NCBI GenBank assembly: GCA_016208965.1 | Contig: JACQXB010000023.1 | Location: 1 to 64,000 of the forward strand | Length of the DNA: 64,000 nt | Source: Nitrospirota bacterium | Lineage (GTDB): Bacteria > Nitrospirota > Thermodesulfovibrionia > UBA6902 > DSMQ01 | Direction of reading: 5' to 3' | Part shown: one piece after another, positions 4,110 through 64,000 of the stretch | How positions within the stretch are numbered: position 1 is the stretch's first letter | Layout: the number at the start of each line of letters is the position of its first letter | Made by a program: the position numbers and the translations under genes | Notes under the pieces: generated by a model | What the model saw: the letters and a program-made list of their open reading frames with translations, nothing else | Told to the model about the DNA's origin: nothing | The model's database searches: none

Positions 4110-5093
4110 ATGAATATCCTCATCACAGGTGGTGGAGGTTTTATAGGCAAACCTTTAAGTCGTGAACTTTTAAATTCAGGGCACAATGTAATTGTAACTA
4201 CAAGACGTCAGATTACTCCAAAAGACAATGCAAATCCCCCCTCACCCCCCTTTAGTAAAGGGGGGATGGGGGGATTTTTAGAAATGCTTACATGGAATCC
4301 ACCAACTCTCATACCCCCGGAGATAATGTCAAGCATTGATGCTGTTATAAATCTTGCCGGAGAGTCTATTGCGTCAGGGCGATGGACAAAAAGGCGGAAA
4401 GGGCTTATCCTGTCAAGCCGCATAAATACAACACTCGCGCTTGTGCAGTCAATGAAACAAATCCCCCTTTATCCCCCTTTATCAAAGGGGGACGGAGGGA
4501 GATTACCAAAGGTCTTAATCAGCGCCTCTGCCATAGGTTATTATGGTCCCTGCGGAGATGAATTTGTAACAGAAGATACTCCTCCCGGCACTGACTTCCT
4601 TGCGGAAGTATGTAAAGCATGGGAGGCAGAGGCATTAAAGGCAGAGGAGTCGGGTGTTCGGGTTGTGCTTCTCCGTCTCGGCGCAGTGCTTGAATCTGAT
4701 GGAGGGGCTTTACCAAAAATAGCATTGCCGTTTAAATTTTTTTTAGGCGGTCCAATTGGTAATGGAAAACAATGGTTTTCATGGGTTCATAGAGATGATG
4801 TTTTGGGTATTATTAAGTTTTCTTTAGAAAATGATTCAATCTCGGGTCCTGTTAATATCACTGCACCAAATCCTGTAAGAAACAAAGAATTTTGCACCTC
4901 CTTGGGCAATGCGATTCATAGACCATCATGGCTTCCTGTTCCTGCATGGATAGTTAAACTAACACTTGGAGAGCTTGGGGATGTCCTACTTGAAGGCCAG
5001 AGGGTTGCTCCTGAGAAGACAATGAAGGAGGGATATAAGTTTAAATATCCTGAGCTTAATGAGGCGTTAAGAGCGATATTTGAGCCAGAATAA
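4110..5093 (+). CDS. TIGR01777-family (YfcH-like) NAD(P)-binding epimerase
   Basis: This is an SDR-fold protein with the Rossmann motif [12 protein letters not shown] at residues 4-15, [13 protein letters not shown], the active-site YYGPCGDE region and the C-terminal DUF1731 segment ([27 protein letters not shown]). The substrate of this family is unknown. The usual length is about 300 residues; this one has 327. Two inserts, [15 protein letters not shown] (about residues 42-57) and [15 protein letters not shown] (about 117-132), are both translations of the GGGGGATT palindrome family and explain the difference. It lies 44 bases after tgt. Confidence 0.85.
4232..4278. repeat. Palindromic repeat (AAATCCCCCC family) in frame in epimerase gene
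   Basis: AAATCCCCCCTCACCCCCC pairs with GGGGGGATGGGGGGATTT around TTTAGTAAA. It is translated as [15 protein letters not shown]. Further copies lie at 4458-4504, 30443-30489, 63267-63314 and inside both composite elements. Confidence 0.9.
4458..4504. repeat. Second AAATCCCCC-family palindrome in the same gene
   Basis: AAATCCCCCTTTATCCCCC pairs with GGGGGACGGAGGGAGATT. It is translated in frame as [15 protein letters not shown]. It has diverged from the first copy, so it is not a simple tandem duplication. Confidence 0.85.
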
Positions 5094-12493: not shown

Positions 12494-13237
12494 ATGAACA
12501 TGCCATCAAAAGAAGCCAATAAAATACAGGGGATGTTTTCCTCAATTGCACCACGTTATGACCTCCTGAACAAAATACTCAGTCTCGGTAGAGACAGGTA
12601 TTGGAGGGAATTTACCGTGAGAAAGCTCCCAGAGATAAATAACGGTGTGTTTCTTGATGTAGCAACAGGCACTGCTGATATTGCCATTGAGATAGTTAAA
12701 CACTATCCTTTAGGCATCAATGTAATCGGTGTGGATTTCAGTCATCATATGCTTGAGTTAGGTAGGAAAAAGGTGGAGAGATTAGGATATAGTGGTCAGA
12801 TAGAGTTACGTTATGGTGATGCCAATTCCCTGCCTTTTGAGGATAATACATTTGATGGTGCAATAGTTGCATTCGGGATACGCAATCTACCCGACTATAA
12901 GAAAGGGTTTCAAGAAATGAGCAGGGTTTTAAAAAATGGCGGCAAAATGGTAGTGCTGGAGTTCACCCCGTTAGAAAGCTTTTCTAACGGGGCAAGCCTG
13001 AGCTTTCTAACGGGACAGAGCCACATCCTCAGATACTTTTATCTTACAAAGGTGTTGCCCTTAATAGGTGAGATAATCTCAGGAAGAAAGGGTGCTTATA
13101 AATACCTTTCCGATTCAGTGGTAGATTTCCCCGATCCTGAAAAACTAAAAGAAATAATGAAGGGGGCAGGACTAAGAGAAGTTAAATATTATCTGCTGAC
13201 CTTTGGGACTGTGGCAGTGCATGTAGGAACAAAATAA
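12494..13237 (+). CDS. ubiE: Demethylmenaquinone/ubiquinone C-methyltransferase (UbiE/MenG)
   Basis: This SAM-dependent methyltransferase performs the last step of menaquinone synthesis. Motifs are MFSSIAPRYDLLN near the N-terminus, FLDVATGTADIAI (motif I), the acidic GVDFSHHML, IVAFGIRNLPDYKKG and the C-terminal FGTVAVHVGTK. An insert of about 16 residues (ESFSNGASLSFLTGQS) after VVLEFTPL comes from a GTTAGAAAG palindrome; normal proteins continue directly to about RYFYLTKVLPLIG. TATAAT occurs about 20 bases upstream. Its placement next to a quinol-dependent complex is consistent with a menaquinone-based chain. Confidence 0.93.
   Translation: MNMPSKEANKIQGMFSSIAPRYDLLNKILSLGRDRYWREFTVRKLPEINNGVFLDVATGTADIAIEIVKHYPLGINVIGVDFSHHMLELGRKKVERLGYSGQIELRYGDANSLPFEDNTFDGAIVAFGIRNLPDYKKGFQEMSRVLKNGGKMVVLEFTPLESFSNGASLSFLTGQSHILRYFYLTKVLPLIGEIISGRKGAYKYLSDSVVDFPDPEKLKEIMKGAGLREVKYYLLTFGTVAVHVGTK
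12966..13014. repeat. GTTAGAAAG-family palindrome in frame in ubiE
   Basis: CCCCGTTAGAAAGC, its inverted arm TTTTCTAACGGGG, and a further GCTTTCTAACGGGA are arranged within 49 bases. The same arm sequences bound the larger intergenic elements at 31408-31752 and 32668-32764. Confidence 0.85.
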
Positions 13238-29491: not shown

Positions 29492-30514
29492 TCATAGTGC
29501 CTCTTCTACAGTTTTAACAATGCCCTCTGGGGTAAGCCCATATAGCTTTAATAAAGCATCAGGATTACCCGAACAGCCAAAGACATCCCTTATCCCTATT
29601 CTCTTTACAGGCACAGGGTAATTCTCAGAGAGAAATTCACATACCGCCCCTCCAAGACCCCCTATCACTGAATGTTCCTCTGCAGTAATAATTAACTTTG
29701 AGCTTTTTGCTGCTAAAAGCAGAGTGTCTTCATCAAGGGGTTTTATTGTAGACATATTAATAACACCGGTATCGATACCTTGACTTGAAAGTGACTTTGC
29801 AGCCTTCAAAGCAGCATCTACCATAATGCCTACTGCTATTATATTAGCATCTTTTCCTATACGAAATACATATGCCCGTCCGAGTTTGAATTTATAATCA
29901 GGAGGCATGATGCACGGAACCTTTACCCTTCCAAGTCTGACATAAACAGGGCCGGAGTAATCTGCTATTGCATTGATTACTGAGGTGGTTTCAATTGCAT
30001 CAGCCGGGACAATTACTGTCATGTTTGGGAGTACCCTCATCAGCGCTATATCTTCAAGCGCCTGATGGGATGCCCCGTCTTCCCCTACCGTTATCCCCCC
30101 ATGAGTTGCAACAAGTTTGACATTTGTATTTGAATAGCATATAACCAGCCTTATCTGGTCCCATGCCCTGCCTGTTTCAAAGACTGCAAATGTTGAGGCA
30201 AAAGGGACTTTGCCTGTCAGAGACAATCCTGCTGCTGTCCCAACCATATCCTGCTCTGAAACGCCTAAATTAAAAAACCTATGAGGGAATGCCTTTGCAA
30301 ATTTCGCTGTCTTTGTTGAACCTGAGAGGTCAGCATCTAACACTACAATATTATCCCTCTTTTTCCCGAGCTCAAGCAAAGCCTCTCCATAAGCATCCCT
30401 TGTTGCAATCATTTTTACTTCTGTGTTCTGTGCTCTGTGCTCAAATCCCCCCATCCCCCCTTTGCTAAAGGGGGGTGAGGGGGGATTATTTGTGCTCTGT
30501 GTTCTTTCCCCCAT
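29492..30514 (-). CDS. Transketolase, C-terminal subunit
   Basis: This is the Pyr plus C-terminal half of a split transketolase: ATRDAYGEALLELG, LDADLSGSTKT, NLGVSEQDMVGTAAGL, ATHGGITVGEDGASHQ. It works with the N-terminal subunit encoded immediately upstream in the pentose phosphate pathway. ATG 30514 has AAAGGAG eight bases upstream, spanning the upstream stop, whereas ATG 30412 (the start of the conserved part) has no site. The protein therefore most likely carries an N-terminal extension of about 34 residues ([16 protein letters not shown] and flanks) encoded by a palindromic repeat. Confidence 0.92.
   Translation of the reverse strand: MGERTQSTNNPPSPPFSKGGMGGFEHRAQNTEVKMIATRDAYGEALLELGKKRDNIVVLDADLSGSTKTAKFAKAFPHRFFNLGVSEQDMVGTAAGLSLTGKVPFASTFAVFETGRAWDQIRLVICYSNTNVKLVATHGGITVGEDGASHQALEDIALMRVLPNMTVIVPADAIETTSVINAIADYSGPVYVRLGRVKVPCIMPPDYKFKLGRAYVFRIGKDANIIAVGIMVDAALKAAKSLSSQGIDTGVINMSTIKPLDEDTLLLAAKSSKLIITAEEHSVIGGLGGAVCEFLSENYPVPVKRIGIRDVFGCSGNPDALLKLYGLTPEGIVKTVEEAL
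30443..30489. repeat. AAATCCCCCC palindrome inside the transketolase C-subunit frame
   Basis: AAATCCCCCCATCCCCCC pairs with GGGGGGTGAGGGGGGATTA. It is flanked on both sides by TGTGTTCTGTGCTCTGTGC-type micro-repeats. It is translated as [16 protein letters not shown], identical to the acyltransferase insert at 63267-63314. Confidence 0.9.
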
Positions 30515-31407: not shown

Positions 31408-31752
31408 CCCTGTTAGAAAACCCCGCCATTTATGGTGGGGATGATAAAAATAAATAATATTCATCTTAATACAAATGCATTAAATTACTTTACATAAAAT
31501 CTCCCCCTTACCCCTCTTTGCCAAAGAGGGGGACAAAGTATGGCTTTGCCAAAGAGGGGAATATGAGGAATCTCCCCCTTTGGTATGAACCGCTCTGGTT
31601 CATACCTTTGTAAAAGGGGGATGAAGGGGGATTTTTTAATTGTATTCATTTTACCTTTGTAATTTTAGTATGAACCGTTATGGTTCATACTTTACTTAAT
31701 GCGTTTGTATTAGAAAGGGCGAAGTTTAAAGTCCTATCCTTTCTAACGGGGT
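31408..31752. repeat. GTTAGAAAG inverted-repeat element split by a second element
   Basis: The left end CCCTGTTAGAAAA is followed by the hairpin CCCCGCCATTTATGGTGGGG and an AT-rich tail. The right end is CCTTTCTAACGGGG. The same order (arm, CCCGCC hairpin, TAAAAAAATATAAATAG, arm) is found uninterrupted at 32668-32764, so the composite element probably inserted into it. Confidence 0.75.
31465..31712. mobile_element. ~248-bp composite palindromic element, copy A
   Basis: Ends are CTTAATACAAATGCATTAA and TTAATGCGTTTGTATTA, forming terminal inverted repeats. Inside are two GTATGAACC palindromes and two CCCCCTCTTT/AAAGAGGGGG hairpins. The reverse complement matches 47021-47268 almost throughout (roughly 90 percent by eye). 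There is no coding capacity, so it is a MITE-like element moved in trans, if at all. Confidence 0.85.
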
Positions 31753-47020: not shown

Positions 47021-47268
47021 CTAATGCAAACGCATTAAGTAAAGTATGAACCATAACGGTTCATACTAAAGTTACAAAAGTAAAATGAATACAATTAAAA
47101 AATCCCCCTTCATCCCCCTTTTACAAAGGTATGAACCAGAGCGGTTCATACCAAAGGGGGAGATTCCTTACGTTCCCCTCTTTAGCAAAGCCATACTTTG
47201 TTCCCCTCTTTGGCAAAGAGGGGTGAGGGGAGATTTTATGTAAACTAATTTAATGCGTTTGTATTAAG
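47021..47268. mobile_element. ~248-bp composite palindromic element, copy B (inverted)
   Basis: Starts CTAATGCAAACGCATTAAG and ends TTTAATGCGTTTGTATTAAG. The order of internal palindromes is the mirror of copy A (31465-31712), and the two are highly similar when one is reversed. It starts two bases after the TPR stop codon. Confidence 0.85.
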
Positions 47269-62979: not shown

Positions 62980-64000
62980 TTGCTTGAGGTCCTTGCTGTA
63001 AATAATAGAAGCTCATTTAAAGAATTCCTAAATCTCCCCTTTAAGTTATACGATAAAAATCCTTTCTGGGTGCCTCCACTCTTAAAAGACCTGAAAGAAC
63101 AATTCTCACCCCAAAACCCGTTTTTAAAGCATGCTGAGATAGCCCCTTTTATAGCAAAAATTGATGGTAAAACCGTTGGAAGAATAACCGCTATATATAA
63201 CTCTGCCCATATAGATTTTCATAATGAAGCACACATGCCTCGAAGAGACACAAAAGACAATGAAAATAATCCCCCCTCGCCCCCCTTTAGCAAAGGGGGG
63301 ATGGGGGGATTTTCAGGTGAGAAAACGGGTTTTTTTGGTTTTTTTGAATGCATAGATTACCCTGTCGTTGCAAAGGCGCTTCTTGAAAGGGTTAAGCAAT
63401 GGCTTAGAGAGAAAGGGATAACTATACTCCGCGGACCCGTAAATTTTTCCACCAACGATGAATGCGGCTTACTTATAGACGGATATAACTGCTCACCAAT
63501 GATTATGATGCCTTATAATCCCTCATATTACTCAATGCTCCTTGAACAATGTGGATTCGCAAAGGCAAAGGACCTCTATGCATACATAATAGATGTACCC
63601 AAGACCATCCTCCCGGAGAAAGTCTTTAGAGTCGTGAGGATTGCGGAGAAACACAACATAACCGTTAGGCACATAAACATCAAATCTTTTAGGCAAGAGA
63701 TGGAGATTTTTAAAAGTATCTATAATTCAGCATGGGAGCGAAACTGGGGCTTTGTCCCAATGACCGATGAAGAAATAGACCATGAAGCAAAAAAGCTGAA
63801 GCCAATAATAATCCCGGAACTCACATTGATAGCCGAATGTAGAGGTCAGCCGGTTGGTTTTATGATGATGCTGCCTGATTTCAATTATGTCCTGAAGAAA
63901 CTCAATGGCAGACTTTTCCCGTTTGGAATTCTTAAAGCCCTCTGGTATTCAAGAAAGATAAAAGACCTGCGGCTCCTGCTTCTTGGGATAAAAGAGGGTT
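62980..64000 (+). CDS. YghO-like GNAT acyltransferase, bCerS candidate (partial, runs off window)
   Basis: A frame opening with TTG 62980, two bases after the previous stop, stays open to the window end (340 codons). It reads LPFKLYDKNPFWVPPLLKDLKEQF, HAEIAPFIAKIDGKTVGRITAI, GFFGFFECIDYPVVAKALL, GPVNFSTNDECGLLIDGY, MMPYNPSYYSMLLEQCGF and NSAWERNWGFVPMTDEEI. This is the YghO-type acyltransferase pattern. Residues about 97-112 ([16 protein letters not shown]) are a palindromic repeat insert before GFFGFFE. Next to spt it may be the bacterial ceramide synthase. The start is uncertain and the 3' end is missing. Confidence 0.8.
   Translation, partial: MLEVLAVNNRSSFKEFLNLPFKLYDKNPFWVPPLLKDLKEQFSPQNPFLKHAEIAPFIAKIDGKTVGRITAIYNSAHIDFHNEAHMPRRDTKDNENNPPSPPFSKGGMGGFSGEKTGFFGFFECIDYPVVAKALLERVKQWLREKGITILRGPVNFSTNDECGLLIDGYNCSPMIMMPYNPSYYSMLLEQCGFAKAKDLYAYIIDVPKTILPEKVFRVVRIAEKHNITVRHINIKSFRQEMEIFKSIYNSAWERNWGFVPMTDEEIDHEAKKLKPIIIPELTLIAECRGQPVGFMMMLPDFNYVLKKLNGRLFPFGILKALWYSRKIKDLRLLLLGIKEG
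63267..63314. repeat. AAATCCCCCC-family palindrome inside the acyltransferase gene
   Basis: AATCCCCCCTCGCCCCCC pairs with GGGGGGATGGGGGGATT. It is translated as [16 protein letters not shown], the same peptide as in the transketolase subunit. Confidence 0.9.

Follow-up and report, generated by a model that had tools for sequence, protein, structure and literature searches.

The question raised by this locus is whether two palindromic stretches that lie in frame within a single epimerase gene are pieces of repeat DNA that entered the coding region and are tolerated there, or an old part of the protein. The window, i.e., the whole stretch of 64,000 nucleotides analyzed here (positions 1 to 64,000 of contig JACQXB010000023.1), belongs to a 1.67-Mb genome (G000) that is 87.8% complete and, among named relatives, stands closest to Nitrospirota (Nitrospirae) groundwater MAGs. 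The palindrome families are denoted F1 to F6, and F1 is the family of both epimerase inserts. The following features of the window are relevant:

4110..5093, + strand: gene of a TIGR01777 (SDR39U1-like) epimerase, 327 aa, with both inserts inside (TIGR01777 E=2.6e-100; best Foldseek hit 4b4o, E=4e-30).
4232..4278, + strand: insert 1, a full F1 palindrome, A3T-C6-TCA-C6-TTT-AGT-AAA-G6-AT-G6-ATTT, encoding a 15-residue peptide at residues about 42-56 (inverted repeat, fold, pLDDT, homologues).
4460..4504, + strand: insert 2, an F1 palindrome with arms of 5 C, encoding a 15-residue peptide at residues about 118-132 (inverted repeat, pLDDT, homologues).
12966..12992, no strand assigned: F5 palindrome CCCCGTTAGAAA...TTTCTAACGGGG, of a separate palindrome family, within ORF 12494-13237 (palindrome listing).
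30444..30487, - strand: F1 palindrome in open frame in the transketolase-like ORF 29492-30514 (-), C-terminal transketolase part; the peptide is that of insert 1 (letter-for-letter match).
31511..31691, no strand assigned: intergenic composite of about 180 nt, made of F2 (CCCCTCTTT) and F6 (GTATGAACC) palindromes of the gene-avoiding class (palindrome listing).
47043..47223, no strand assigned: second intergenic F6/F2 composite of about 180 nt, in reversed order (palindrome listing).
63268..63311, + strand: F1 palindrome in open frame in ORF 62980-64182 (+); the peptide is that of insert 1 (letter-for-letter match).

A search of the window against Rfam at the gathering score returned four tRNAs only, and the palindromes match no RNA family.

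The two in-frame palindromes that the first-pass annotation had placed in a TIGR01777 gene are present as inverted repeats within ORF 4110-5093, with the core of insert 2 lying in a codon register other than that of insert 1. In single-strand folding, insert 1 reaches -20.4 kcal/mol (0 of 200 shuffles as good) and insert 2 reaches -12.8 kcal/mol (4 of 200). The AlphaFold model of the window epimerase, built with 62 aligned proteins, has a mean pLDDT of 91.8 and a pTM of 0.91; the 10-residue means of pLDDT drop to 55 only at residues 41-50 and 121-130, i.e., at the inserts, and the mean at 51-60 is 72. The epimerase fold is confidently predicted, and the only poorly defined parts of the model are the two inserts, which in this one protein are predicted to be disordered. 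The family has 17 invariant columns, all of which lie outside the two inserts. The same annotation reported identical peptides in a transketolase and an acyltransferase gene of the window, and the peptide does recur exactly in both ORFs; the name “acyltransferase”, however, finds no confirmation in Pfam, because ORF 62980-64182 (340 codons within the window) matches no family at E<=1e-4. The start codons of both ORFs are uncertain: the family match of the transketolase-like ORF begins at residue 29, past the insert, and the gene caller begins the other gene just past its insert, so that in each case translation may begin downstream of the repeat.

Insertion, as opposed to ancestry, is borne out by an alignment with homologues that lack the inserts. 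This alignment comprises 110 rows, 30 from loci of the same order and 80 from named records, six of which repeat genomes of the order by sequence. At the second epimerase site, 97 of the 110 rows have 3-7 residues and the other 13 have 17-36; these 13 long rows represent 10 distinct genomes of the 30 in the order (three rows are repeats), and the 74 rows that do not belong to the order (L138-L211) all lack the insert. In 92 of the 110 rows the loop has 6 residues, and relative to these rows insert 2 brings a net gain of 11 codons (33 nt), which is less than the element length of 44-46 nt; thus, the insertion was not a clean addition, and host codons were replaced or eroded. At the first site, a palindromic insert is found in 3 of the 28 loci of the order that reach the site (L016, L018, and L044). 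A syntenic congeneric pair, with 86-90% identity in long matches, differs by a double palindrome that is present in G031 and absent from G029. The junctions compared, at epimerase site 2 and in the G031/G029 pair, are not clean enough to resolve a target-site duplication.

That the loop is instead a conserved protein feature, palindromic in DNA by chance, is hardly credible. Five genomes do have similar peptides at a common site, but the 74 rows from outside the order, none of which has the insert, rule out an ancestral protein motif; furthermore, identical DNA occurs in many unrelated genes, and the peptide shifts with the register whereas the DNA is constant. The observation that, according to the annotation, would have overturned the insertion claim, namely homologues in which non-palindromic DNA encodes identical residues at the corresponding position, was not made in these rows. 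We therefore describe the repeat itself.

The full F1 unit is AAAT-C6-(2 or 3 nt)-C6-TTT-NNN-AAA-G6-(3 or 2 nt)-G6-ATTT, with constant stems, a variable 3-nt loop and inverted ends (terminal inverted repeats). The length from AAT to ATT is 44 or 45 nt in all 16 copies measured, of which 11 are in genes, 3 in 5'-extended frames and 2 outside; because copies in and outside genes do not differ in length, selection on frame does not account for it. The exact core CCCCCTTT-NNN-AAAGGGGG (CCCCCTTTNNNAAAGGGGG) has 68 copies in the 1.67-Mb genome, compared to 0 for the reversed-pattern control, and the window contains 39 near matches to the core versus 12.5 expected, a number reached in 0 of 100 shuffles. 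Only two pairs of fully identical elements were found among the 16 full ones, so that recent movement receives weak support. The purL gene (L061:12053-16297, C10 of the same genome) holds two F1 copies, identical to each other over 44 nt, and one F3 copy. Four genes hold two palindromes 32 nt apart that are read as a single insert of about 26 codons.

The counts inside and outside genes and the frame bias, which had been proposed as checks, were obtained from the 50 F1 copies listed by position; the remaining 18 of the 68 are outside the count, and loci L333-L337 were omitted because their choice by protein similarity to the insert would bias the count towards genes. Open frames contain 40 of the 50 copies. 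Among the 31 copies of a 461-kb sample, 20 are strictly within called genes, 6 are in the 5'-extended frame of a called gene and 5 are outside, one of the latter in a frame of 301 codons with a match to PF02621, a menaquinone biosynthesis family (MqnA); among the 19 held-out copies, 13 are in frames of at least 110 codons and 6 are not. The core is read in the three registers 16, 23, and 1 times (n=40, the register of the MqnA copy being assigned from coordinates), and the lone third-register copy has the loop GGA, which keeps the frame open. Given the stop-free registers, the third is expected in 1.8 of 24 cases, and the probability of none is 0.13. Stop codons in the third register are therefore sufficient to account for the restriction, and a frame preference beyond stop avoidance is unsupported. 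One and the same F1 DNA yields PPF or PPL depending on the register, and it is read on either strand, which indicates that the DNA is conserved rather than the peptide.

The families differ in their location. F1 and F3 together are strictly in genes in 24 of 36 cases, compared to 1 of 24 for F2, F4, and F6 (p=7e-7), a grouping that was chosen after the table was seen and that leaves out F5 (2 of 4 in genes). In the 461-kb sample, all 26 F1 copies without a nearby F2 or F3 are in ORFs, N-terminal extensions and the MqnA frame included; the corresponding held-out figure is 11 of 14, so that the post hoc rule that a lone F1 lies in an ORF is weaker than it first seemed. With a coding density between 0.73 (called genes) and 0.83 and about 3.6 of 6 registers open, random landing with full tolerance of open registers would put about three quarters of the copies in genes; the observed 40 of 50 indicates no visible cost in core enzymes. 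Some process must account for this share: targeting, the loss of copies between genes, or the growth of such copies into composites.

The host genes include those for protoporphyrinogen oxidase, HemW, precorrin-2 methyltransferase, cobI, CobD, CbiB, HisF, TopA, PurL, HemC, and an RND permease, as well as NuoG, chorismate synthase (aroC), Cas6, IleRS (ileS), acyl-CoA ligase, NrdJ, and mqnA. In most core-enzyme hosts the family model spans the insert, and in alignments of HisF, HemC, TopA, and PurL with PDB entries, breaks or gaps coincide with the inserts. Two of 20 hosts (ORFs of L065 and L068) have no NCBIfam match, although the L068 ORF matches DUF4416 in Pfam, and three others match weakly or beside the insert. 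The chorismate synthase (L320:1079-2377, 433 residues) spans the whole 327-position Pfam model with residues 2-408 and so has many extra residues besides F1.

F1 extends beyond this genome. Its core is found in 44 of 61 genomes (this one and its relatives), in 85 of the 295 genomes sampled from the phylum, with up to 207 copies, and in 9 of the 50 genomes behind the named homologues, with 1-13 copies; the reversed control gave 0 in each of the three sets. One of those nine is from Nitrospirota, and the others are delta-proteobacterial, Desulfobulbaceae, Ignavibacteria/Ignavibacteriae, or bacterium BMS3Abin04. Sampling a single copy from each genome of the order and class gave 15 of 29 copies in ORFs; in the genomes behind the named homologues (up to two or three copies each) 3 of 16 are, one of these three in Nitrospirota (L220). 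The registers in this 45-copy cross-genome sample are 7, 11, and 0, and some of the copies (at least L096 and L216) are at a contig edge and were counted as outside ORFs. One genome, G346 (HGW-Deltaproteobacteria-13), has 13 cores with several loops (CAT, CTT, and CGC, for example) absent from the listing of the window's own genome, and perhaps represents an unrelated hairpin class. A full F1 element is also carried by one contig of the IMG/VR viral collection (L338).

The same loops are occupied by different repeats in different lineages. Of the ten genomes with an insert at epimerase site 2, three have F1, another three have F1/F2-type doubles, and three have TPLSPL-type palindromes, whereas the insert of one (L026) is undefined and not recognizably palindromic. 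In L021 and L133, a small palindrome (within SLPTGQAGP) is nested in the TPLSPL-type insert. Presence of the site-2 insert needs 8 changes on the tree, and a one-clade constraint was rejected both for the ten inserted genomes (p-AU 0.0002) and for the five that share the left junction (p-AU 0.007), for groups that were named after the tree was seen. A single shared origin of the insert is thus rejected by the AU test, although an old insertion with repeated loss would be compatible with these data. The hairpin loop of HisF has palindrome-type peptides in G000, L231, L248, and L252, less clearly in L230, and other low-complexity peptides elsewhere; its lag-7 signal is weak (0.34 versus 0.25). 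The first loop of HemC contains F1, at the DNA level, in G000, L264, and L267, and in many relatives (among the HemC homologues L258-L287) both HemC loops, after RENPRDALI and after VPIAAY, are filled in frame by 7-nt tandem repeats, the unit of which varies between genomes. For the two HemC loops the lag-7 self-match averages 0.61 over 29 loops and 0.58 over the 22 of 29 loops with at least 36 nt, compared to 0.29-0.30 gene-wide.

These refillings could mean that insertion prefers the DNA of certain loops, where F1, F1/F2 composites, TPLSPL palindromes, and 7-nt arrays arrive repeatedly, tolerance being not the whole story. This is a tentative reading. At least three palindromic kinds of insert and an undefined one at a single epimerase site, the rejection of one clade, and the likewise refilled HisF and HemC loops point towards it, whereas random hits on permissive loops would look alike, the left junction common to five genomes also fits one old insertion followed by loss and rearrangement, the AU groups were picked post hoc, and the relatives all lack a palindrome peptide where TopA of G000 has its insert. 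We would accordingly word only as a possibility, which we do not favor, that core-enzyme loops of the order are recurrent landing pads, entered in frame across lineages by unrelated repeats (44-45 nt palindromes, composites, and 7-nt arrays of many unit sequences) through a site-biased process and not solely through random insertion followed by survival. If this were true, the length of protein loops in these bacteria would be set largely by repeat DNA.

What, then, is F1? Quite probably, it is a selfish palindrome of this Nitrospirota lineage that resembles the Rickettsia palindromic elements (RPE) and survives in genes as translated flexible loops. Under this explanation, the 44-45 nt palindromes would spread as selfish DNA; a copy in a gene would survive if its register is stop-free, if its net length does not shift the frame, and if it sits in a surface loop; and the surviving inserts would be translated in the cell into flexible peptides, rich in Pro, Gly, and Lys, that do not disturb the fold and are presumably near-neutral. 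Several observations fit this explanation less well. Random insertion with purifying selection should deplete F1 in genes, yet F1 is hardly depleted there compared to the coding density (0.73 called; 0.83); the net gain at site 2 is below the element length; in the named-homologue genomes only 3 of 16 copies are in ORFs; and active mobility, which the selfish explanation suggests, is weakly supported as far as recent movement is concerned (two identical pairs among 16). It is also conceivable, though very improbable, that the insert is removed or skipped, by RNA excision or ribosome bypass, so that the protein is made without it: there are strong hairpins at the site and core enzymes tolerate the insert, but the open frames of 40 of the 50 copies would be needless in that case, and around six copies outside called genes (five F1 and one F3) no broken conserved gene was seen by eye.

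With the selfish palindrome as the preferred explanation, the mover has to be considered, and our first guess, a tentative one, would be a single-strand (Y1/HUH type) transposase acting in trans. In its specific form, that of a REP/REPIN-like element moved by a RAYT (Y1 tyrosine transposase), this idea is rather doubtful. The genome encodes an intact 289-aa Y1 protein of the RAYT type and a 90-aa remnant, and Y1 genes occur in 41 of 44 genomes with F1 compared to 7 of 17 without F1 (Fisher p=4e-5; Spearman 0.61; uncorrected for kinship). Linkage at the locus level does not accompany this co-occurrence: no F1-type hairpin flanks the gene in 20 Y1 loci (part of all Y1 matches, with exact stems of at least 9 only), GTAG or CGTC is found in 0 of 62 24-nt flanks (background 0.04 and 0.02), and three genomes have F1 without Y1. 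Another candidate, an intrastrand-triplex instability motif (PIT/TMECO-type) that arises and spreads via replication errors instead of a transposase, is unlikely. F1 has the matching order of blocks, i.e., C-run, loop, G-run, short spacer, and G-run, and TMECO is characterized, in the passages of PMC4666352 devoted to it, as repetitive, unstable, and without linked transposases. On the other hand, the exact TMECO pattern, CCCTCNCCC N3-6 GGGNGAGGG N3 GGGNGAGGG, has 0 matches in 461 kb on both strands, and TMECO is always intergenic in E. coli K-12 whereas F1 is mostly in genes.

The comparison with known systems follows from these results. Short hairpins that are found in some ORFs, with dimers coding for 20-30 residues, are also reported for the GTAG/CGTC REPs, including RPE-4/RPE-6 of R. 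conorii, in the relevant part of PMC3733652, where two species of Xanthomonas are described as having recB hit by REPs at nearly the same position. As described there, the GTAG/CGTC REPs are mostly intergenic, and F1 lacks their tag (0 of the 62 flanks), so that F1 does not belong to them. REPIN/RAYT systems (PMC3116915, in the portion concerned) likewise consist of hairpin repeats, and Y1 co-occurs with F1 across genomes; the difference is that F1 lies beside 0 of the 20 Y1 loci. With TMECO/PIT, F1 has in common the architecture of C-block, loop, G-block, spacer, and G-block, as outlined in PMC4666352, and the absence of the exact pattern from the 461 kb argues against membership. The Correia pair of 107-bp and 155-bp elements, as presented in the section of PMC2229807 concerned, parallels F1 versus F2/F4/F6 in that an open-frame element is in genes and the other almost only intergenic; the organism and the size are different, and the comparison is by description. 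Coding palindromes in general are known; the open-licence literature searched yielded no description of F1, of its peptides, or of re-use of loops by multiple repeats, and what was not found in that literature is thus the F1 family and this re-use (different palindromes across genera; HemC 7-nt repeats).

The closest likeness is that drawn by the first-pass annotation, to the RPE, and it holds as a likeness of behavior: insertion in a tolerated frame is supported, and F1 appears to work like the Rickettsia elements in kind. RPE (Ogata 2000, 2002, via PMC2229807) are, in the account given in that source, palindromic repeats in frame in conserved protein genes and also intergenic, with counterparts in Wolbachia and Methanocaldococcus. 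Similarly, F1 is a dispersed palindrome with many copies (68 cores, control 0), in frame in conserved genes that have insert-free homologues. The differences are in size and composition, RPE being 105-146 bp in Rickettsia according to the same account and F1 44-45 bp, GC-run based, and in Nitrospirota, as well as in location: 40 of 50 F1 copies are intragenic, and loops in the F1 lineage are re-used across genera by different repeats. Filled and empty HisF, HemC, and epimerase proteins are natural replicates in which the cost of an insert of 11-30 residues is measurable, and the filled and empty loops let one ask whether repeat DNA targets loops or merely survives there. F1 thus shows that coding palindromes, for which Rickettsia is the best-known source, occur in a further phylum as well, where core enzymes contain many of them and loops are re-used.
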